DNA of 64,000 bases from Xanthostigma xanthostigma (Eukaryota > Arthropoda > Insecta > Raphidioptera > Raphidiidae), in contig OY754465.1 of NCBI GenBank assembly GCA_963575645.1, positions 55,079,901-55,143,900 of the forward strand, in the 5' to 3' direction. This document shows positions 578 to 63,919 of this stretch, one piece after another. Position 1 is the stretch's first letter. Each line of letters opens with the position of its first letter. A program made the translations under genes and the position numbers. The notes beneath the pieces are model-generated. The model made no database searches. It was given only the letters and a program-made list of their open reading frames with translations, and was not told where the DNA came from.

Positions 578-1483
578 ATGGGTGTTTTTTTTAGAGGTAT
601 ACAAGTTTAAAATGAAATAAAACACGTAAAAATAAGGTTGCTGGCCACGTTGTTGGCTTTGTTTAAAATATAATTTTATGCCATTAATGTTTAAATATGA
701 TTTCGGGCATATGGACGCCACGGCTGGCTTGAATGAAGCGCAATCGGGAAGTCCAATTTTCGATCACTTTATCGAGCATCTGGGGCCGTATATCGCCAAT
801 AGCGCGGCGAATGTTGACTTCCAAGTGATCCAACGTCTGTGGTTTATCGGCGTAGACTAGTGACTTCACGTATCCCCAAAGAAAGTAATCCATAGGTGTG
901 AGATCAAAATTTTGCATTGAAAAAGAGGATCAAGCTGAATATTGTTTTCGGCCCATTCACCGAACGTACGGCGCGCATAATGGTCACGCGGAATTAACTC
1001 TTGCACAAGCTGGATATTGTAAGCTCGTAAGCCAAGATCTTTTCGCAAAATCTTCCACAACGTGGATGGGCACAGTCCCAATTGCTGTGCACGACGGCGT
1101 ATCGACTCATTCGGGTCCTCCTCAACACTACGCACCACAGCAGCAATGGCATCTTCTGTGCGCACTGCATGGCGTCTTTGTGGATGCGTATTATCAACTA
1201 GAGTATGCGTAGTTCGAAAACGATCCATGGTTTTCCGAATAACTTGCTCGAATGGACGATTATGTCGACCGTAAAATGGACGTAGCGCACGGTTAGTTTG
1301 GCAAACTGAACCATAATTTTCAAAATAAATTTGCACAATTTGCAAGCGTTGTACTGATGTAAGTCTATTCATGGTTAAATGGCAAAACATACTGACCACA
1401 AATCATCTGTCAACTGTCAAATTAACTGTCACTTGAAACGGTGTTGCCAATTTCAAAACCAAACCTCCAAAAAAAACACCCTT
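578..1483 (-). mobile_element. Deleted mariner-superfamily element (DUF4817/rosa-like)
   Basis: The terminal inverted repeats share GGGTGTTTTTTTT(A/G)GAGGT, and the element is flanked by TA at 576-577 and 1484-1485, the target duplication of the Tc1/mariner superfamily. The body carries a minus-strand transposase relic. At 906 bp it is shorter than an autonomous element (usually about 1.3 kb or more), because the centre of the transposase is missing. It is an internally deleted, non-autonomous derivative that might still have been mobilised in trans through its intact ends. Confidence 0.85.
684..1372 (-). pseudogene. Mariner-type transposase, catalytic core deleted
   Basis: The N-terminal part, read from the ATG at 1372, has the DNA-binding helix-turn-helix region seen in DUF4817/rosa-type transposases: MNRLTSVQRLQIVQIYFEN, then GRHNRPF, then RTEDAIAAV, SIRRRAQQLGL and ILRKDLGLRAYNIQLVQEL. 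It stops being alignable after NIQLDPLFQCKI, just before the expected first catalytic aspartate. A second frame (917 down to 684) resumes at DLTPMDYFLWGYVKSLVYAD, the region of the third acidic residue, and continues to the C-terminus. The first two catalytic acids are therefore lost and the junction shifts frame. Non-functional. The domain naming is from memory of the family. Confidence 0.85.
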
Positions 1484-7792: not shown

Positions 7793-8393
7793 TCTATACT
7801 AATATATAAAGCTGAAGAGTTTGTTTGTTTATTTGAACGCGCTAATCTCAGGAACAACTGGTTCAAATTGAAAAAAAAAATTGTTGGCTAGCCCATTTAT
7901 CGAGGAAGGCTATAGGCTATATAATATTACGCTACGACCATTAGGAGCGGAGCTTTAATGAAAAATGTTGGAAAATGTATCTCAAAAATAAGCTTTTATT
8001 CATGTGAAATGCACTAACTAGATTAGTGTTGTGAGAACACAACCTCAGGTGGCACAATCGGTAGAGCATGCAACTGTCAATATCAGGGTCGTGGGTTCGA
8101 GCTCTACGTTGGGCGAATATTTTTTTATTTATTTAAATTTTTTACATTGCTTTCTTCTAAGGCTTACATTTAAATTTATTTTAATTTTATTTAATTAATT
8201 TTTAAAAAAATATTAGTTAAAAAAAGTTTAAATACTGCTTTTTATCGACAAAAACTTTTGAATGGTAACTCCGATCATCATGAAATTTGGACGCAACATT
8301 CATCTCGGTAAACTAAGATGAATGTGTGTACTCATGTTCCTCCCTTCCCCATTCATTCTTTTAAACCCGGGTGAAACCGGACGGGACCGCTAG
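7793..8393 (+). mobile_element. Non-autonomous Helitron, family A, tRNA-bearing
   Basis: The 5' end is TCTATACTAATATATAAAGC after a host A. The 3' end is a GC-rich CCCGGGTGAAACCGG hairpin, a short spacer and CTAG before a host T. These are Helitron ends at an A^T site. Conserved body blocks include AACGCGCTAATCTCAGGAAC and CCCATTTATCGAGGAAGGC near the 5' end and CTCCGATCATCATGAAATTT near the 3' end. At 601 bp it is one of three copies in the window that carry a tRNA-like module in the middle (8043-8115). No Rep/helicase gene is present, so it depends on an autonomous relative. Confidence 0.85.
8043..8115 (+). pseudogene. tRNA-Lys-like module inside Helitron
   Basis: The 73-nt segment matches the layout of animal tRNA-Lys(CUU) as I remember it. 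It has a D arm with an A-box-like TGGCACAATCGG and GTAGAGC, and a T arm with GTGGGTTCGAGCTC (B box GGTTCGA), then TTGGGCG. The anticodon stem is broken (TGCAA opposite TATCA), the loop would present GTC instead of CTT, and the acceptor stem pairs poorly. It is therefore not a working tRNA. Both internal PolIII promoter boxes survive and could promote transcription of the element. Confidence 0.75.
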
Positions 8394-9670: not shown

Positions 9671-9992
9671 ATAAAAACGCTTTTCGTGGAGACCCATTCT
9701 GCAACGTAAGACGACAAAAAACGGTAGTAATCTACAAATTCGTGCGAAGCCGGACCGGGCCGCTATAAATACAAAAACCATTGGAATTGGTAGTTGGTAC
9801 ACTATCAATAAAAGAACGTTTAAATTGTATTGTATTTTATTAAACGTTCTTTTATTGATAGTGTACCAACTACCAATTCCAATGGTTTTTGTATTTATAG
9901 CGGCCCGGTCCGGCTTCGCACGAATTTGTAGATTACTACCGTTTTTTGTCGTCTTACGTTGCAGAATGGGTCTCCACGAAAAGCGTTTTTAT
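9671..9992. repeat. Perfect palindrome, 153-bp arms, 16-nt loop
   Basis: Position x pairs with 19663-x from 9671/9992 to 9823/9840, with no mismatch found by eye. Each arm contains GCTTTTCGTGGAGACC and GGCCCGGTCCGGCTTCG, so it is a copy of the Helitron-like sequence also at 4423-4510, with extra flanking sequence. Because the arms are identical, the same short frame (IVYQLPIPMVFVFIAARSG) appears on both strands and is not a gene. Transcription would give a long perfect hairpin. An assembly or chimeric-read artefact must be excluded. Confidence 0.85.
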
Positions 9993-16581: not shown

Positions 16582-17207
16582 GGTAAGTTTCTAGGTGAAG
16601 TAGAGTTAAGGGCTTAATTCAAGGCTGCGTGTATTTTTTGGTTGCACTCGTTTGCAGAAACAGTTTGGGAACCACTCAAGTTCACGACGCGTAGCTTCGG
16701 GCCCGCACTAAATACGAAACACTCCGCGAACATATAAAACTCATTAACGTATGCCTCAATGCAAAGTAGGTCTAACGTTTCTCTTATCCCCTATGACTAT
16801 TATCTCCGAGTTCATCAAGCCGCAACGGAACTGAAGTACAAACATGTTACAGAGAAGTACCGAGCGATGTAGCTTAGTAGTGAGAGCCAAAGGCGTCCAT
16901 ATGTAAAGGACTTGAACATCCCCCCCCCCAGATTTTGGTATAGCCGAGCTTTTTACGCGCTTTATATTAACTTCACTTGTAAGTTTGTGTGTATGTATGT
17001 ATGTTTGTTTGTAACCTCCGTTTGGACTACAGCAAGTGATTTATTACTGTAGTATAATATGCCAGCACTGTGCGGTCTAAAGCACGGGTCTTCGTTAACG
17101 TCAGCTCCCGGAATCACGGGTCGTGGGTTCTAATACCGTCCAAGCCGAAAAAAAAATTGTTTTTTTACGGCAAATTTTTGACAATAAATCGAACTAAAAG
17201 TGGAAAA
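16582..17207. other. No gene recognised
   Basis: It contains a C10 run at about 16921-16930 and a TATG/TTTG simple repeat at 16985-17010. Near 17105-17135 CACGGGTCGTGGGTTC resembles a T-arm, but there is no tRNA fold. Confidence 0.4.
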
Positions 17208-17494
17208 TAAATATAGTTTAAAAAAACTAAAAAAAACACTCTTAACTAAAAAGTAAAAAATATTTTTTTTTAAATAAGCTTAAAACAATACTGAATAAAA
17301 AATACTAGTATTATTGTGAAAAAATCGTGGGGCGCTCGATGTACGAAAATGTGGAACAAAGCGCCCCACGCTTTTTTCACAATAATACTAGTATTTTTTA
17401 TTCATTATTGTTTTAAGCTTATTTTAAAAAAAAATATTTTTTACCTTTTAGTTCGATATAAAGCGTGTTTTTAGTTTTTTTTAAACTATATTTT
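17208..17494. mobile_element. Palindromic MITE, copy 1
   Basis: The sequence is one long inverted repeat. AATATAGTTTAAAAAAACT at the left is mirrored at the right, and the arms close through GTGGGGCGCT / AGCGCCCCAC around a 23-nt loop at 17337-17359. The same element, with the loop in the opposite orientation, lies at 59841-60055. Copy 1 has an extra stretch in each arm (AATACTAGTATTATTGTGAA). Non-coding foldback element; transcripts would form a long hairpin. Confidence 0.85.
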
Positions 17495-17956
17495 TTCAAT
17501 TTATGTATAAATCAGTTGCATATGAAAATGTAAGTCAGTGTCAAAATAAATGGAAATTTGAGAAGCGTTTCAAGTATTTATAGAAACGAGTTGACCAGCG
17601 GAATAGGAAATATTAAAACAGTTTGAAACATAATATAATGTGTACGAGTGCACGAATAGAGCATTCAAATATAGATTGAACTTGAATTCAATTATTATCG
17701 ATAAATAAAATGTCATTAACAATCAGCGTTCATTTGTTCATTGTTAAAGACAAGTCCACAATAATACAAAAGCCTATTAATAGAGGCCGTGAACATTATT
17801 TTTTAAACACATTATTTAACACATGCTGTTTCAATCAAGGTCACGCCTATGACGTTACAAAACAGTTGATAACAAGTAACCGCAGCGCTCTTCAAAAAGA
17901 ATGGCGGTTTCTTTTGGGGGCTGTACAAAAAATTGAGTACCGCGTCAACGTGTCAA
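17495..17956. other. No recognised gene
   Basis: The 146-codon frame starting at 17710 lies mostly here but runs into the repeat at 17957. It has no recognisable domain, so I do not call it a gene. Confidence 0.4.
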
Positions 17957-22238: not shown

Positions 22239-22679
22239 CCAGCGGTCCCGCCCGGTTTCACCCGGGTGTAAAAGAACGAGCGGGGAGGTACATTAGTACG
22301 CACGTTCATCTTCGTTTACCAAGATGATCAGAGTTACCGTTCGAAAGTTTTTGTCAGACGGACAAATTTTGAGTTATATTTTGCAACATTTTTCATGAAT
22401 TGTGAAAAATAACTCTAATAATTTAGAGTGATGATGATCCTGTTTAAATGTTGGAAGATAGGATGAATCCTGGTGGCATAGGATCGATGAACTAAGCAAA
22501 TACTGAATTTTTCATTAATACTCCGCTCCTATTGGTTGTAGCGTGATATTATGTAGCCTATAGCCTTCCTCGATAAATGGGCTATTCAACAAAAAATATT
22601 TCAATTCGAACCAATAACTCCTGAGATTAGCGCGTCCAACCCAACAAATAAACTCTTCAGCTTTATATATTAGTATAGA
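22239..22679 (-). mobile_element. Non-autonomous Helitron, family A
   Basis: Minus-strand start TCTATACTAATATATAAAGC next to a host A, and end CCCGGGTGAAACCGGGCGGG plus CTGG next to a host T (CTGG still fits CTRR). The 441-bp copy lacks the tRNA-like module and carries its own ~150-bp internal segment (22395-22520) not seen in the others. Confidence 0.8.
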
Positions 22680-23514: not shown

Positions 23515-23867
23515 CTAGCGGTCCAGCCCGGTTTCACCCGGGTGCAAAAGAACGAATGGGGGGAGGGACATGAATACGAACATTCATCTTCGTTTACAGA
23601 GATGAATGTTGTGTCCAAATTTCATGATGATCGGAGTTACCGTTCAGAAATTTTTGTCGGACGGACACATTTTGAGTTACATTTTGCAACATTTTTCATT
23701 GATGTTCCGCTCCTATTGGTCGTAGCGTGATATTATGTAGCCTATAGACTTCCTCGATAAATGAACTATCCAACAATTTTTTTTTCCATTCGAACTGGTA
23801 GTTCCTGAGATTAGCGCGTTCAACCAAACAAACAAACAAACTCTTCAGCTTAATATATTAGTATAGA
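23515..23867 (-). mobile_element. Non-autonomous Helitron, family A, short form
   Basis: At 353 bp it has both ends intact (minus-strand TCTATACTAATATATTAAGC and hairpin plus CTAG) between host A and T. The tRNA-like module is absent; the flanking body blocks join directly. Confidence 0.85.
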
Positions 23868-24007: not shown

Positions 24008-24621
24008 CTAGCGGTCCCGTCCGGTTTCACCCGGGTGTAAAAGAACGAATGGGGAAGGGAGGAACATGAGTACCTTTACACATTCATCTTAGTTTACCGA
24101 GATAAATGTTGTGTCCAAATTTCATGATGATCGGAGTTACCGTTCAAAAGTTTTTGTCGATAAAAAGCTGTATTTTTTTTTTAAATATATTTTTTTTAAA
24201 TTAATTAAATAAAATAAAAATAAATTTAAATGTAAGCCTTAGAAGAAAGCAATGTAGAAAATAAAAAAAAATAAAAATATATTTGCCCAACGTGGGGCTC
24301 GATCACACGACCCTGATATTGACAGTCGCATGCTCTACCGATTGATCTACCTGAGGTTGTGTTCTTTCATCACTAATATGAGTATATCTAGTTAGTGCAT
24401 TTCACATGAATAGAAGCTTATTTTTGAGATACATTTTGCAACATTTTTCATTAAAGCTCCGCTCCTAATGGTCGTAGCGTAATATTATATAGCCTATAGC
24501 CTTCCTCGATAAATGAGCTATCCAACAAAAAAAAATTTTCAATTTGAATCAGTAGTTCCTGAGATTAGCGCGTTCAAACAAACAAACAAACAAACTCTTC
24601 AGTTTTATATATTAGTATAGA
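24008..24621 (-). mobile_element. Non-autonomous Helitron, family A, tRNA-bearing
   Basis: A 614-bp full-length copy. Host A and T flank the minus-strand TCTATACTAATATATAAAAC start and the CTAG end. The body matches 7793-8393 throughout, including the tRNA-like module and the AT-rich run next to it. It is in opposite orientation to that copy. Confidence 0.85.
24284..24356 (-). pseudogene. tRNA-Lys-like module inside Helitron
   Basis: Same 73-nt module as at 8043-8115, read on the minus strand: CAATCGGTAGAGCATGCG in the D-arm region, a CTGTCAA loop and GTCGTGTGATCGAGCCCC in the T arm. The B box is altered (GTGATCGA instead of GGTTCGA). The shared GTC loop shows that the change predates the spread of these copies. 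Confidence 0.7.
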
Positions 24622-26530: not shown

Positions 26531-27178
26531 AATGAAACGCCTTGATACTACTTTCTGACCGAGATTAGTTGCGGATAACAGTAGTTGTTCTGCTCGTTTC
26601 CAAGGTCTGAAATTTCCAAAATCTTTCCCGATTAAGCAAAGCCGATACCCAAAATGGAACGCCTTGACGAGTCTTCTACTACTTCTTGATCGAGATTAGT
26701 TGAGGATAACATTCATCAGTAGTTTTTCTGGTCGTTTCCAAGGTCTGAAATTTCCAAAATTTTTCCTCATTAAGGAAAGCCGATACCCAAAATGGAACCC
26801 CTTGACGAATCTACTACTTACTTCCTGACCAAGATTAGTTGCGGATAACATTCATCAGAAGTTATTCTGGTCGTTCCCCACGTCTGAATTTTCCAAAATC
26901 TTTCCCCATTAAGGAAAGCCGATACCCAAAATGGAACCCCTTGAGGAATCTACTACTTACTTCCTGACAGATATTAGTTGCGGATAACATTCATCAGTAG
27001 TTTTTCTGGTCGTTTCCAAGGTCTGAAATTTCCAAAATCTTTCCCCATTAAGGAAAGCCGATACCCAAAATGGAATCCCTTGTCGAATCTACTACTTACT
27101 TCCTGACCGAGATTAGTTTCATGGCAATTCATCAGGAGTTAATCTGGTCGTACCCAACGTCTGAATTTTCCAAAATCT
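26531..27178. repeat. ~139-bp tandem array, five units
   Basis: AATGGAACGCCTTGACG-type starts occur at 26531, 26653, 26791, 26930 and 27069. The first spacing is 122 bp because of a deletion; the others are 138-139 bp. Shared blocks are GAGATTAGTTGCGGATAACA, TCTGGTCGTTTCCAAGG and AAAGCCGATACCC. Unit divergence is modest. Non-coding satellite-like array. Confidence 0.9.
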
Positions 27179-27826
27179 TAATTTTATGCTGATTGGATTG
27201 ATAAAAGAGCTAGAGCAAGATTGTGAACTGGATTCCTAGATACGACACTGTCTGTCTTATCTCATGATGGTGATCGATAACCGATCAATCTACTAATAAA
27301 TCTTGCCTCAGTGACATCAATAGCAAAAAAAAAACGAGGAAGCGACAAAAATAATCACCTGTCTGCACGGGCCGGACCGCGTCTTCCATCGTTAATTAAT
27401 TAGTTTACGTTCAACACACAACTGCTTCCTTTGTCGCTAATGTGTCAATAATCGTTATGTGTTCCGTGTCGTCGCTATTTTAATAACAGTTTTGTGTGCT
27501 AATTGAGCTTTCACTACAAATCGTTAATTGACAGTTTATATGAAAATTGTTCCTCGTCATATCAATAAAAACTAAGATTAAAAAAAGATTTCGTCATCAG
27601 TTTTTTCATTAAAATTGAGTAGACTATCAAGAAAAGAGTACCTATCGTCAACCAACATGGAAGAAAAGTGGTTACCAATAATGACGAAAAAAGTTACCTT
27701 CATCAGTACTTTTACCATTCCAACTCCACAATTCGGGAATTTAGTTGGTTGACAGTGCAAAATTTAGTTACTAGAATTTTGCTTAAATTTATGTTTTACA
27801 TCTGCCGAACGTCCCACGACGATCCA
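27179..27826. other. No gene recognised
   Basis: No element ends or motif-bearing frames seen. Confidence 0.4.
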
Positions 27827-31129: not shown

Positions 31130-31431
31130 ATAGCGATCCCGCCCGGTTTCACCCGAGTGCAAAAGAACGATTGGGAGGGTAGCGACATGAGTACGCACAT
31201 TCATCTTAGTTCAGCATGATGAATGTTATGTCCAAACATGATGATCGGAACAAATTTTGAGTTACATTTTGCAACATTTTTCATTGATGCTCCGCTCCTA
31301 TTGGACGTAGCGTGATATTATATAGCCTTCCTCGATAAACGTCTATTCAACAAAAAAAATTCGAACTAGTAGTTCCAGAGATTAGCGCGTTCAACCAAAC
31401 AAACAAACTCTTCAGCTTTATATATTAGTAT
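31130..31431 (-). mobile_element. Decayed family A Helitron
   Basis: About 300 bp with the family A body blocks (GATTAGCGCGTTCAACC, TTCCTCGATAAACG) but degenerate termini: ATAG instead of CTAG at the left and TATACT instead of TATAGA at the right. Small deletions are present. The oldest-looking copy in the cluster. Confidence 0.7.
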
Positions 31432-31943
31432 ACTCGTACCTAGATTAATCAAATATGCAAGCTGCTGCCCACGACAACAAAATATTTTTTTAAATGTCCC
31501 TTCGAAGGAAAAAAGTTTCACATCGCTATTATAGATCGTTTTTTAAATTTCCAGTGAAGATAATACCTTCAATGCCATCAGATAAATTAAGCACGTAGGC
31601 CATTATTGTTTTCATTTAAAACAAAGATTAAAAAACTTCATTATTTTTTTGAGAAATCAATTTGCAAGTCTAAAAAATGACAACATCACTACAGGAGGAA
31701 ATGTCTTGTACACATTTTAAATTTTTTTACAATACAAAAACGAAGCCTGATTTCCGACACGCAAAAATTAGAGAACAAAGCAAAAAAACATTTAGTGGCT
31801 TGATTTATTATAGAAGGTTTTACTGCTTACATATTTTTTGTGACAAAAAATAAATTTACGTTGTAAAGCACGATTCACAGAATACGTAACAGTCAAACAA
31901 TTTAAACATCATTGTCTAAATATTCACAGGTTTAGGTACTTAA
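31432..31943. other. No gene recognised
   Basis: Nothing identifiable. Confidence 0.4.
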
Positions 31944-38808: not shown

Positions 38809-39364
38809 CTAGCGGTCCCGTCCGGTTTCCCCCGGGTGTAAAAGAACGAATGGGGAAGGGAGGAACATGAGTACACACATTCATCTCAGTTTACCGAGAT
38901 GAATGTTGTGTCCAAATTTCATGATTATCGGAGTTACCGTTCAAAAGTTTTTGTGGATAAAAAGCAGTATTTAAACTTTTTTTAACTTTTTTTTTTTTTA
39001 ATTAAAATAAATTTAAATTTAAGCCTTAGAAGAAAGCAATGTAGAATATAAAAAAAAAATATATTCGCTCAACGTGGGACTTGAACCCACGACCCTGATA
39101 TCGCATGCTCTACCTGAGGTTGTGTTCTCACAACGCTAATATGAGTGCATTTCACATGAATTGCAGCTTATTTTTGAGATACATTTTGCAACATTTTTCA
39201 TTAAAGCTCCGCTCCTAATGGTCGTAGCGTAATGTTATATAGCCTATAGCCTTCCTCGATAAATGGGCTATCCAACAAAAAAAAAATTTTCAATTTAACC
39301 CAGTAGTTCCTGAGATTAGCGCGTTCAAACAAACAAACTCTTCAGCTTTATATATTAGTATAGA
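38809..39364 (-). mobile_element. Non-autonomous Helitron, family A, tRNA-bearing
   Basis: 556 bp, with CTAG next to host A (38808) at the left and the TCTATACTAATATATAAAGC start next to host T (39365) at the right. Body as in 7793-8393. The tRNA-like module is partly deleted. Confidence 0.85.
39066..39119 (-). pseudogene. Truncated tRNA-Lys-like module inside Helitron
   Basis: The T arm (CGTGGGTTCAAGTCCCACG, perfectly paired) and part of the D arm (GGTAGAGCATGCG) remain. About 19 nt covering the anticodon loop and the start of the D arm are deleted. The B-box region is well preserved. Confidence 0.7.
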
Positions 39365-42537: not shown

Positions 42538-42908
42538 TCCGCGCTAATTTCCAAAACCATTGAACCGATTTTAATGAAACTTTATAAATGTATCTTGTTT
42601 GGTCCAACTTACACAGTAGGATAGTTTATATAATATTTTGTACAAATTTGGTTAAAAAAAACTGTTTATAAAAAATGCAGCGACATCTCACAGAATTTAC
42701 TCAAAGCTATTAGTTCAGAAGCGCACAAAAAAACTGTTTTAGTGCCAAGTAGCGACATCTGATAGAATTCGCTCAAAGCTATTAGTTCAGAAGGAAATCT
42801 GGTAGAATTTGCTCAATAAGCAATTAGTTCAGACGCCCGGCCGCAAACGAAATACATTTTGCAGAATTATATCTATCGCACCCGGGTGAAACCGGAACGT
42901 ACCGCTAG
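42538..42908 (+). mobile_element. Helitron family B, 5'-truncated
   Basis: It begins at CGCGCTAATTTCCAAAACC, skipping the first ~40 bp of the family, and ends CACCCGGGTGAAACCGGAAC then CGCTAG before host T. It shares the duplicated AGCGACATCT blocks of the 31944 copy. Confidence 0.75.
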
Positions 42909-55662: not shown

Positions 55663-55752
55663 CAAATAACACGAACCATTTAAAATGTCTGACACCTCGA
55701 ATATGTCGACATATTCGAGGTGTCAGACATTTCAAATGGTTCATGTTATTTG
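55663..55752. repeat. 90-bp near-perfect palindrome without a loop
   Basis: Centred on GTCGAC at 55705-55710, each arm carries ACACGAACCATTT (or its near copy) and TGTCTGACACCTCGAATAT. Only a few mismatches. It lies within 300 bp of the large foldback element. No target duplication was found. Confidence 0.85.
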
Positions 55753-57039: not shown

Positions 57040-57730
57040 TTAGAATTTTTCCTTAGGTTGATCAGAGGAACATTGAGTAAATTAAAAAACTCCTTGTCAA
57101 AATAATCATTAACTACTTTATACGGATCTAATATACTATTATATAGAATTTTCTTACTAGCATGTTACAAATTAAACTGATGACAGTAAGAATCATAATC
57201 AAAATAGGATCGTCTGTACATGAAATGAAAAACAATATAAATTACAGAAATAATAACCCCTGTCCAAAGTTGGTACAAGTCGTCCAAGGCTGTGCAACGT
57301 ACGCCGATATTATTTATCGCACTTCTACAATATAATGTTATAAGAGATCTACAATTTATACCTTACCAATGGTTATAGCAGGCTAATGGTACGATATGAC
57401 TGTAAATCAAAACAGCCAGTTGACTTTTCAATAGCCAATATAATATCTGTTGAACAGATCTTGATTGCGTGCTGCAGAATACCTACAGTGATAATATATT
57501 ATTACTATTTTGTTTTGTTTGCAGAAGAGAATCGAGAATCTAGTTTTGTAAAAATCGTTGAATAATTAGTCTCCGATTAGAATTTCGTGTCATTAATCTT
57601 GTCTGCAACACCCGAGTTCTACTTACATGCTATTATGCAGCAACTACTCGACCGAAATCGTCGTTACAATGTAACCCCTTACGGTTCTGGCGGTCATTTC
57701 AATGGACATACTATTCTAACGCGTGGAATT
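57040..57730. other. No gene recognised
   Basis: Nothing identifiable before the tandem array. Confidence 0.4.
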
Positions 57731-58626
57731 TAAGTCAGCGTAATTAAATATCAAATATAAACACTTCATTGTGCTTGGGGCTTATATGAGATGTAGGCAT
57801 GCCAAACAAAACAAAGAAATACTATGTGCTTGGGAAGAAATATCGAGTCAAGTGTTGACCGCGGCAGTCATCCATTCACGCAAAACTGGTAAAAGTACAT
57901 TCCGAAAGTTAAGTCAGCGTAATTAAATATCAAATAAAAACATTTCATTGTGGTTGGGGCTCATCTGAGTTATAGGCATGGCAAACAAAACAAAGAAATA
58001 CTATGTGCTTAGGAAGAAATATCGAGTCAAGTGTTGACCGCAGTCATCCATTCACGTAAAGCTGGTAAAAGTACATTCCGAAAGTTAAGTCAGCGTAATT
58101 AAATACCAAACAAAAACATTTCATTATGGTTGGAGCTTATCTGAGTTGTAGACATGCCAAACAAAACAAAGAAATTCTATGTGCGTGGGTTGAAATATCG
58201 AGTCAAGTGTTGACCGCAGTCATCCATTCGCGCAAAGCTGGTAAAAGTGTACATTCCGAAAGTTAAGTCGGCGTAATTAAATATCAAATAAAAACATTTC
58301 ATTAAGGTTGGGGCTCATCTGAGTTATAGGCATGCCAAACAAAACAAAGAAATACTATGTGGGTGGCTAGAAATATCGAGTCAAGTGTTGACCGCAATCA
58401 TCCATTCACGCAAAGCTGGTAAAAGTGTACATTCCGAAAGTTAAGTCAGCGTAATTAAATATCAAATAAAAACATTTCATTATGCCTGGGACTTATCTGA
58501 GATATAGGCATGCCAAACAAAACAAGGAAATACTATGTGGGTGGTTAGAAATATCGAGTCAAGTGTAGACCACTGCAGTCATCCATTCACGCAAAGCTGG
58601 TAAAAGTGTAGGTACATTCCGAAAGT
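57731..58626. repeat. ~178-bp tandem array, five units
   Basis: Units start TAAGTCAGCGTAATTAAATA at 57731, 57910, 58086, 58264 and 58442, giving spacings of 176-179 bp, and the last unit ends at 58626. Shared blocks are CATGCCAAACAAAACAAAG, TATCGAGTCAAGTGTTGACC and GCAGTCATCCATTCACG. Divergence between units is a few percent. The period is close to nucleosome-repeat length, as in many satellites. Non-coding. Confidence 0.95.
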
Positions 58627-61930: not shown

Positions 61931-62383
61931 ATTCTAAGTACACGGCGACATTGAAAACGATGCAAATAACGTTTAACATATAAACAGATCATCATTAATA
62001 ATAAAAGTTTAAACTGTCTGACAAAAAACAATGTACGGAACATTTTTGAGGAATTTCAATATGGCAAAGCGCCAAACAAATAGACACAATACGTACGGGC
62101 ATTTGATTTGCACCAATAATTTATTTGATCATGGATTGTTTTTATAGACAATTAAATAAAGAACGCTTGGGAAAAAAACTTGAAACTGTCACAGATATTT
62201 ACTGTAAGTACATTTTAAAAACTGCTTTTATAAAGAATGCTCTGAGACCCAAAACCGGATTCATGCACATGATTAATTTAATCAATGAACCAGGGATGGC
62301 CAAATTGCACTTCCAAACGAGTGCGTGTTGCCTTTACGAGCAGCTGAAGTAAAACTTCTAACGCACCCTTGTTCGGGAAATCA
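61931..62383. other. No recognised gene
   Basis: The 75-codon frame at 62125-62352 shows no known domain and ends just before the tandem array. Confidence 0.35.
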
Positions 62384-63130
62384 CCGATCACAAAATTGGT
62401 TTTGCGTCCGTAGTCATGATTCGCCTTCCGCTCAAGATGGTTTCTACAGATGCTTTTTTACGTCGCCAAACTGTCAGTCGATGGCTTCAAATAGCGGAAA
62501 CCGATCACAAAATTGGTTTGCCTCCGTAGTTATGTGTCAACTTTCGTTCAAGATGGTTTCTACAGATGCGATTTTATGCCGCCAAACTGCCAGTCGATGC
62601 CTATAAATAGCGGAAACCGATCACAAAACTGGTTTGCGCCCGTAGTCATGTGTCAACTTTCGTTCAAGATGGTTGCTGCAGATGCGATTTTATGCCGCCG
62701 ATCTGTGAGTCGATGGCTTTAAATAGCGGAAACCGATCACAAAATTGGTTTGCCTCCGTAGTCATGTGTCAACTTTCGTTCAAGATGGTTGCTGCAGATG
62801 CGATTTTATGTCGCCGATCTGTCAGTCGATGGCTTTAAATAGCGGAAACCGATCACAAAATTAGTTTGCGCCCGTAGTCATGTGCCAACTTTCGTTCAAG
62901 ATGGTTGCTGAAGATGCGATTTTATGTCGCCGATCTGTCAGTCGATGGCTTTAAATAGCGGAAACCGATCACAAAATTGGTTTGCCTCCGTAGTCATGTG
63001 TCAACTATCGTTCAAGATGGTTGCTGAAGATGCGATTTTATGCCGCCGATCTGTCAGTCGATGGCTTTAAATAGAGGAAACCGATCACAAAGCTGGTTTG
63101 CGTCCGTAGCTATGTTTCAGCATTCGTTCA
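62384..63130. repeat. 116-bp tandem array, about 6.4 units
   Basis: CCGATCACAAAATTGGTTTG starts units at 62384, 62501, 62617, 62733, 62849, 62965 and 63081, so the spacing is 117 and then exactly 116 bp. Shared blocks are GTAGTCATGTGTCAACTTTC, TTCAAGATGGTTGCTG and TCTGTCAGTCGATGGC. Divergence is a few percent. Because 116 is not a multiple of three, the short frames across it shift each unit, so it is non-coding. Confidence 0.95.
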
Positions 63131-63471
63131 ACCCTAACGTACCAAAACCACGCCAATGCAATGTGTTTGCGTCTGTTGTATGTCTGTTCGGTCTGCTCAA
63201 TACATAGACAGCACAAAATATACAATAATTGTATTCAGTATTCACATACAGCTCAGGCTGTATACTTGTTTTTGTTATTTCTTATTCTATTATCATTAAG
63301 AATTACAAATCAGCTCAAACAAGGACACTAACTGTAAAGTTTCAACAATGCGCCCTTGTTCAAAAAAGTTAAAAAAAAATGGTGCATATTCAACGAGAAC
63401 GGAAAATGTACATTATGATCATCACAAAAAAACAACTAGAACCCTAGTACAAATTCATATTTTCAATTTTA
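63131..63471. other. No gene recognised
   Basis: Nothing identifiable. Confidence 0.4.
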
Positions 63472-63919
63472 TCTATACTAATATATAAAGCTGAAAAATT
63501 GGTTTGTTTGGTTGAACGCGCTAATCTCAATAACTACTGGTTCGAATTGAATTTTTTTGTTGGATAGCCCATTTATCGAGGAAGGCTATAAAGCTGAAAA
63601 ATTGGTTTGTTTGGTTGAACGCGCTAATCTCAATAACTACTGGTTCGAATTGAATTTTTTTTGTTGGATAGCCCATTTATCGAGGAAGGCTATATATATA
63701 GGCTACATATCACGATCAATAGGAGCGGAGCATCAATGAAAAATGTTGCAAAATATAACTCAAAATTTGTCCGTCCTACAAAAGCCTTTGAACGGTAACT
63801 CCGATCATCATGCAATTTGAACACAACATTCATCTCAGTAAACTAAGATGAATGTGCATACTCATGTCCCTCCCTCCATTCGTTCTTTTGCACCCGGATG
63901 AACCGAGACTGGCCGCTCG
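63472..63919 (+). mobile_element. Family A Helitron with internal 103-bp duplication
   Basis: It starts TCTATACTAATATATAAAGC after a host A. The segment from AAAGCTGAAAAATTGG to CGAGGAAGGCTAT occurs twice (63487-63589 and 63590-63692) with almost no difference. The rest of the body follows, ending CACCCGGATGAACC and CTCG before host T, so the 3' tetranucleotide and hairpin have decayed. The tRNA-like module is absent. Confidence 0.8.

Follow-up and report, generated by a model that had tools for sequence, protein, structure and literature searches.

A worn tRNA-Lys-like module carried inside a young clade of non-autonomous Helitrons in Xanthostigma xanthostigma

Fragments of protein genes are a familiar cargo of Helitrons; in Xanthostigma xanthostigma (Raphidioptera), a Helitron family carries the relic of a tRNA. 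Within a 64,000-nucleotide stretch of contig OY754465.1 (hereafter the window), three copies of the family hold, at one internal position, an insert of about 255 bp that contains a tRNA-Lys(CTT)-like module, and four relatives lack it. The best joint explanation, which we consider probable, is that the insert was gained once by nested insertion, was multiplied by the Helitron, and contains a module that is now a worn passenger. The copies with the insert (filled) and without it (empty) are:

7793..8393, + strand: filled Helitron copy 1, with 5'-TC and 3'-CTAG ends, between A and T
7987..8240, + strand: insert of copy 1, missing in empty relatives (alignment of three filled and four empty copies, and empty sites in other loci; edges uncertain by 6-8 nt)
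8366..8381, + strand: putative subterminal 3' hairpin of copy 1, CCCGG-GTGAAA-CCGGA, weakened in filled copies
24008..24621, - strand: filled Helitron copy 2, by alignment with family copies
38809..39364, - strand: filled Helitron copy 3, by alignment with family copies
23515..23867, - strand: empty relative, by alignment with family copies
22239..22679, - strand: empty relative with an unrelated internal insert, by the same alignment
31131..31434, - strand: empty relative, slightly truncated, by the same alignment
63472..63919, + strand: empty relative with an internal duplication, by the same alignment

Each of the three filled copies has its own flanks, runs from a 5'-TC to a 3'-CTAG and occupies an A|T insertion site, and the alignment of three filled and four empty copies places their common insert at a single internal position. 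This agrees with the first-pass annotation of the window, which had reported three full-length copies with a tRNA-like segment at the same internal position. The annotation had also named 23515-23867 and 22239-22679 as lacking the module, which is confirmed here and extends to the two other empty relatives that it had not listed. The carried piece is, however, larger than the 73 nt described there. In a tree of the seven copies computed with the insert left out, filled and empty copies are split with a bootstrap of 100. Fourteen differences are fixed between the two groups (3 versus 4 copies), seven of them at the junction, and branches are shorter in the filled copies (0.015-0.039) than in the empty ones (0.059-0.093). 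The filled copies are a young clade of the Helitron family. When folded, the subterminal 3' hairpin has 5 bp in the empty copies and is weaker in the filled ones, with none of six folds clearly beating shuffles.

Other repeats share the window with this family. The 3' ends of another Helitron type lie at 2906-2934 and 42880-42908, with a common stretch just inside the end, the latter sitting after a short tandem repeat. An open reading frame at 869-1402 (- strand) encodes a transposase-like DUF4817 helix-turn-helix domain (Pfam, 1.6e-11). Near-perfect hairpins at 9787-9876 and 55666-55749 match microRNA models below cut-offs and are probably foldback miniature transposons, and three tandem arrays are present, at 26549-27179 (139-bp unit), 57730-58610 (178-bp unit) and 62383-63131 (116-bp unit).

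The source genome (623 Mb, 28 contigs) was searched with copy 1, and the best 40 of 4106 candidates were scored; each spans 600 or 601 of the 601 bases of copy 1, at 91-100% identity. The 39 copies fetched besides copy 1, chosen by their likeness to it, all start with TC (39/39), 33 end in CTAG and 37 have the A and T flanks. Because the flanks of these copies are unrelated (an all-against-all comparison paired the flanks of only two copies, weakly, at 72% over 148 nt), the 39 represent separate insertions. The 601-bp copy, which the first-pass annotation had suggested as a probe, thus recovers many full-length filled copies in unrelated flanks, mostly with Helitron ends. The 5'-TC and 3'-CTRR ends and the insertion between A and T are those of canonical Helitrons, and the status of this family as a non-autonomous canonical Helitron is well supported.

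A search with the module alone, in which the best 40 of 277 candidates were scored, yielded 30 fetched loci, which, like the 39 copies, represent a selection by likeness to copy 1 and include window copy 1 itself. In all 30, the Helitron 5' part adjoins the module, and in 24 the 3' part lies within 700 bp of it. Since the 5' part is beside the module in 30/30, the module is Helitron cargo in every locus examined, and its assignment to a Helitron subfamily, proposed from the window, holds up. Not one of these module-fetched loci (0/30) has a free-standing module outside a Helitron, and free SINE-like copies with duplications of their own, which had been named as the observation that would speak for a separate nested SINE, are absent among them.

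Abundance was estimated from DNA that had not been selected for the module, i.e. 142,380 bases of flanks (outside the window, counted once, of 153,680 searched) and 26 kb in five arbitrary regions (L108-L112). Five module-bearing copies outside the window were met there, three in the flanks (L050, L075 and L084) and two in the arbitrary regions (L111 and L112). Extrapolation gives approximately 18,500 filled copies (Poisson range about 6,000 to 43,000), to be taken as an order of magnitude only because the sampled flanks may be Helitron-rich. Exact pattern matches outside the source genome were found in neither the viral-contig nor the genome-contig collections searched.

Within the window copies, the module and its putative Pol III elements are placed as follows:

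8043..8115, + strand: tRNA-Lys(CTT)-like module of copy 1, 59/73 ungapped identity, loop CTGTCAA, 18.6 bits against Rfam RF00005
8050..8061, + strand: A box of copy 1, TGGCACAATCGG, fitting the box consensus
8094..8104, + strand: B box of copy 1, GGTTCGAGCTC, off the box consensus
8120..8126, + strand: T7 run directly 3' of the copy 1 module, a candidate Pol III terminator
24284..24356, - strand: tRNA-Lys-like module of copy 2, 60/73, loop CTGTCAA, A box off consensus at position 11
39066..39119, - strand: tRNA-Lys-like module of copy 3, 54 nt left after 12-nt and 7-nt deletions, no RF00005 match

The likeness to tRNA-Lys(CTT) is far above chance in copies 1 and 2, with best scores of 45 and 47 against shuffle maxima of 10.0 and 9.5 (2000 shuffles each), and Lys-CTT is the top match among 17 nuclear tRNAs compared. 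The Rfam tRNA model RF00005 aligns over its full length to the modules of copies 1 and 2 with 18.6 and 13.7 bits, the cut-off being 29 bits, and goes unreported at E up to 1 when the whole window is scanned. No RF00005 match of any kind is obtained for copy 3 (38809-39364), the module of which has lost 19 nt, namely 12 nt in the D arm and A box and 7 nt corresponding to the entire anticodon loop. Thus, of the 73-nt tRNA-Lys-like segment that the first-pass annotation ascribed to three copies, copies 1 and 2 bear 73 ungapped nucleotides and copy 3 bears 54; likewise, the altered anticodon loop CTGTCAA described as shared is found in two of three copies only, because copy 3 has lost its whole loop. 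The statement that the A and B boxes are largely preserved is too generous for the window, where no copy (0/3) fits both consensuses, and is accurate for the genome-wide majority described below.

In copies 1 and 2, the acceptor pairs at 5 of 7 positions and the anticodon stem at 3 of 5, and the loop reads CTGTCAA, so that neither fully paired stems nor a Lys anticodon is present. ARAGORN calls no tRNA gene in the window at its default threshold; with a lowered threshold it calls something in copies 1 and 2, copy 1 being Asp-GTC on the module strand. RNA folding of the modules does no better than shuffles. We rejected a working tRNA gene in view of the broken stems and the ARAGORN results, zero in the window and one in 60 loci (L076, called Asp). 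Two neighbouring features are recorded here. A perfect 6-bp hairpin, GTTGTG-AGAA-CACAAC, abuts the 5' side of the module at 8028-8043, a place occupied by other sequence in the older copies L050 and L075. Elsewhere in the window, a second tRNA-like stretch, loosely Leu-like and followed by A and T runs, lies at 17060-17150 and adjoins a long inverted repeat (17206-17496); it may be another tRNA-bearing repeat.

The majority sequence of the 39 genome copies has a module identical to Lys-CTT at 63 of 73 positions. Its 10 differences fall in the 5' strand of the acceptor (4), in the anticodon arm (4) and in the A box (2, both still purines); the acceptor and anticodon stems are broken, while the A and B boxes both fit the consensus. 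Both boxes are kept in 18/39 copies, and a run of at least five Ts occurs within 20 nt downstream of the module in 39/39 (in the window, a run of this kind lies within 16 nt of 7.5% of positions). In terms of sequence, therefore, an A box, a B box and a T-run terminator are present in the subfamily majority, and since they are, Pol III transcription of young copies is conceivable. Among 20 genome loci scanned with the Rfam tRNA model, 18 match at E up to 10, seven reaching the cut-off and 11 falling under it, and L054 and L058 do not match. In a further Rfam scan of four sources, L084 is at the cut-off or above and L111 below it, and L112 and the older L050 copy are without a match.

We then asked whether the boxes look preserved. 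Among the 39 copies, the two Helitron ends depart from the majority at 0.021 and 0.018 per base, the 5' part of the insert at 0.019, the module at 0.033 and the AT-rich tail at 0.036. The module differs from the Helitron ends at p = 3.9e-5; leaving out the two module positions that vary most gives p = 0.016. Within the module, the boxes vary more than the remainder (0.047 versus 0.026, p = 0.006), a signal of box decay that we do not claim because position 11, changed to A in 11/39 copies, makes much of it; with this position left out the values are 0.036 and 0.026 (p = 0.15). In the three window copies, changes within boxes make up 1 of 9 shared and 8 of 12 private changes (p = 0.024). The boxes therefore give no sign of being kept and no proof of faster decay. 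It should be borne in mind that departures from the majority say little about rare master copies, because the bulk of the copies are free to decay once inserted. All 10 fixed differences between the majority module and Lys-CTT leave the A and B box consensuses intact; this could reflect past selection on a promoter, in numbers too small for a decision. The claim of the first-pass annotation that the module provides an internal Pol III promoter can accordingly be retained as a description of the subfamily majority sequence only, and the boxes show no sign of conservation.

These observations bear on whether the module could serve the Helitron as a working Pol III promoter, needed or merely profitable, for example by opening chromatin or by keeping single strands open for the transposase. 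Such a role would fit the consensus-like boxes of the majority, their joint retention in nearly half of the copies, and the survival of the module through several forms. It would sit less easily with the many copies in which the A box is altered (position 11, as above, and D-arm deletions in several of 29 copies of a query-biased sample), with boxes no better conserved than the rest of the module, and with empty relatives that have spread too. Moreover, to our knowledge, Helitron transposition does not require RNA from the non-autonomous element, and transcription of the element lies outside the known mechanism. We consider a needed or profitable promoter unlikely. A broader version, in which a Pol III-competent Helitron lineage has kept a tRNA-Lys promoter across subfamilies, providing thousands of TFIIIC/Pol III sites and short tRNA-like RNAs that perhaps aid its own mobilisation, is doubtful, with a slightly better chance of being right. 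The module is more likely to be a passenger, contributing nothing that the Helitron needs.

Deletions in the module point to a further aspect of its wear. When copy 3 served as query, 19 of the 29 copies obtained (L079-L107) had differing module deletions of 6-28 nt, in a sample biased by the query's own deletions, and some of these fall, by eye, between short direct repeats. When copies were chosen by the intact copy 1, a single one of 39 had a module deletion. In a set of eight copies met regardless of module deletions, such deletions occur in three, namely window copy 3, L050 and L084. The module could be a deletion hotspot during rolling-circle transposition.

Older states of the insert were encountered in the flanks of fetched loci and in the five arbitrary regions. 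The older copy at L050 (minus strand, about 22-549) has the acceptor GCCCGG and the Lys loop CTCTTAA and is identical to tRNA-Lys in 57/73 aligned columns, with gaps; the Rfam tRNA model does not match it at E up to 10. That at L075 (minus strand, about 460-1090) combines the acceptor GCCCGGC with the loop CTGTCAA, reaches 36.2 bits with the Rfam tRNA model, and has an insert of 389 bp compared with 269 bp in the majority sequence. The acceptor reads CTCCGGC in L111 and CCTCAGG in young copies. Taken as single copies and not as a tree, these forms suggest a stepwise wear from the Lys form to the young form, the anticodon loop having changed first and the acceptor strand afterwards.

The junctions of the insert are informative as to how it arrived. 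To the left of its insert, L050 retains the empty-type Helitron sequence GTCCGTCCGA-AAAAA. The right junction of filled copies reads CGACAAAAA (exactly CGACAAAAAC in 31/39), a sequence present once in empty sites. CGA(C)AAAAA is thus a candidate 9-bp target duplication: L050 has it on the left side of the insert, the other filled copies on the right side. The insert looks like one flanked by a 9-bp duplication, as judged from one old copy, in A-rich sequence with one base missing and with the right junction lying beyond the fetched DNA. Because L050 suggests this duplication, entry by nested insertion rather than by Helitron capture is possible. The filled state could also be ancestral and the empty one a deletion; yet more of the empty-type sequence is present in the filled copy that looks oldest.

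The same junctions were weighed against a history in which the Helitron itself captured host DNA with a tRNA-Lys gene, either through filler-DNA repair or through end bypass, the 9-bp repeat being due to chance or microhomology. The module starts 41 nt (L050), 65 nt (majority) or 66 nt (L075) inside the insert and has its T run right after it, an arrangement resembling a tRNA gene with its flanks. In the window copies, no direct repeats flanking the module are longer than shuffles predict, and lepidopteran Helitrons are well described as taking up gene fragments (PMC3789558, PMC6544945). Set against this is the empty-type sequence to the left of the insert in L050, which recurs to the right of it in filled copies. 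We give capture from the host a modest chance of being correct.

The position of the tRNA also bears on a tRNA-Lys-headed SINE that inserted in the Helitron and is now carried along. Its tRNA-derived module, its Pol III boxes and the possible 9-bp duplication would all be in keeping with a SINE, and tRNA SINEs are common in Lepidoptera according to two reports (PMC8010984, PMC3272025). A SINE would, however, have its tRNA at the 5' end and not 41-66 nt inside the insert, and the five or more Ts that follow within 20 nt in every one of the 39 copies should stop Pol III before any SINE body. It is this internal position and the T run following at once, together with the 0/30 free copies, that make a separate tRNA-headed SINE very unlikely. 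The proposal that a tRNA or a tRNA-headed SINE was captured before the spread is thereby narrowed: a tRNA-Lys origin and a gain that preceded the spread stand, a SINE is improbable, and a nested insertion may replace the capture.

We therefore propose the following history, in which nested insertion remains the favoured mode of entry. A non-autonomous canonical Helitron family would have gained, once, a segment of approximately 270-390 bp with a tRNA-Lys(CTT) sequence inside it. Nested insertion is its most likely route of entry, with some 9 bp of Helitron sequence being duplicated, as the single old copy indicates; a later deletion would have erased the left duplicate. A RepHel partner, presumed to act in trans, would have multiplied the whole element by rolling-circle transposition to an extrapolated order of ten thousand copies. 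The module would have lost its tRNA shape stepwise, the anticodon loop before the 5' acceptor strand, as the individual older copies suggest. Young copies with intact boxes could, judging from their sequence, yield a short Pol III RNA ending just past the module.

Among known systems, non-autonomous canonical Helitrons with foreign internal sequence are well known from Lepidoptera, such as Lep1 and Hel-2/BmHel (PMC4038834, PMC4344730, PMC3789558, PMC6544945). As described there, the present element shares with them the 5'-TC and 3'-CTAG ends, the A|T insertion, a putative subterminal 3' hairpin, the lack of a duplication at the element ends and the foreign DNA inside (PMC4038834, PMC4344730). 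What sets it apart is that it carries a module derived from a tRNA and provided with Pol III boxes; tRNA as a term is absent from the main texts of PMC4038834, PMC4344730, PMC3789558 and PMC6544945.

Another comparison is with a tRNA-Cys cluster in Arabidopsis that overlaps annotated Helitrons and for which none of three tools produced a reliable Helitron prediction; this 2023 plant paper also states that the capture of a non-coding RNA by a Helitron would be the first of its kind (PMC10701932). Both cases place tRNA sequence inside Helitron-annotated DNA, but the Arabidopsis case, as presented there, is a tandem array at one locus, whereas here a worn tRNA is found in dispersed copies with clean Helitron ends (PMC10701932). 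Apart from that paper, the listings of open-licence PMC papers that were searched showed none describing a Helitron with a tRNA module.

Helenus elements, which are TRIM retrotransposons with tRNA-like LTRs, provide another parallel: hymenopteran ones were aligned with tRNA-Lys-CTT (PMC10886601). As in Helenus, a tRNA-Lys-like Pol III promoter sequence resides on a mobile element other than a SINE and has lost the tRNA fold; unlike the present element, which moves as a DNA-based Helitron, Helenus is described there as an LTR retrotransposon with 4-5 bp duplications (PMC10886601). The alignment with tRNA-Lys-CTT invites the idea that a solo LTR of this type was trapped in the Helitron. We rejected it as highly improbable, because the TG...CA pairs with 4-5 bp duplications that could delimit such an LTR extend into Helitron sequence of the empty copies or vary between copies, and the candidate duplication is 9 bp. 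Finally, the lepidopteran SINEs HaSE1/2 and PxSE1-3 are, like the module, tRNA-derived with A and B boxes, but their heads were compared with tRNA-Arg or tRNA-Glu, with the tRNA at the 5' end and with duplications and a tail of their own (PMC8010984, PMC3272025). They are moved by LINE machinery, unlike the present Helitron.

Together, these results describe an unusually clear case of the relic of a small-RNA gene that rides on a Helitron and has been spread by it. The present Helitron with its tRNA relic has clean ends, known empty sites and dispersed copies, and its intermediate forms suggest the way in which a tRNA decays within a transposon. At an extrapolated ten thousand or so copies, the modules matter for tRNA annotation and small-RNA mapping in this genome, and the copies constitute a natural graded set of promoter variants with which the recruitment of Pol III by mobile tRNA relics may be tested.
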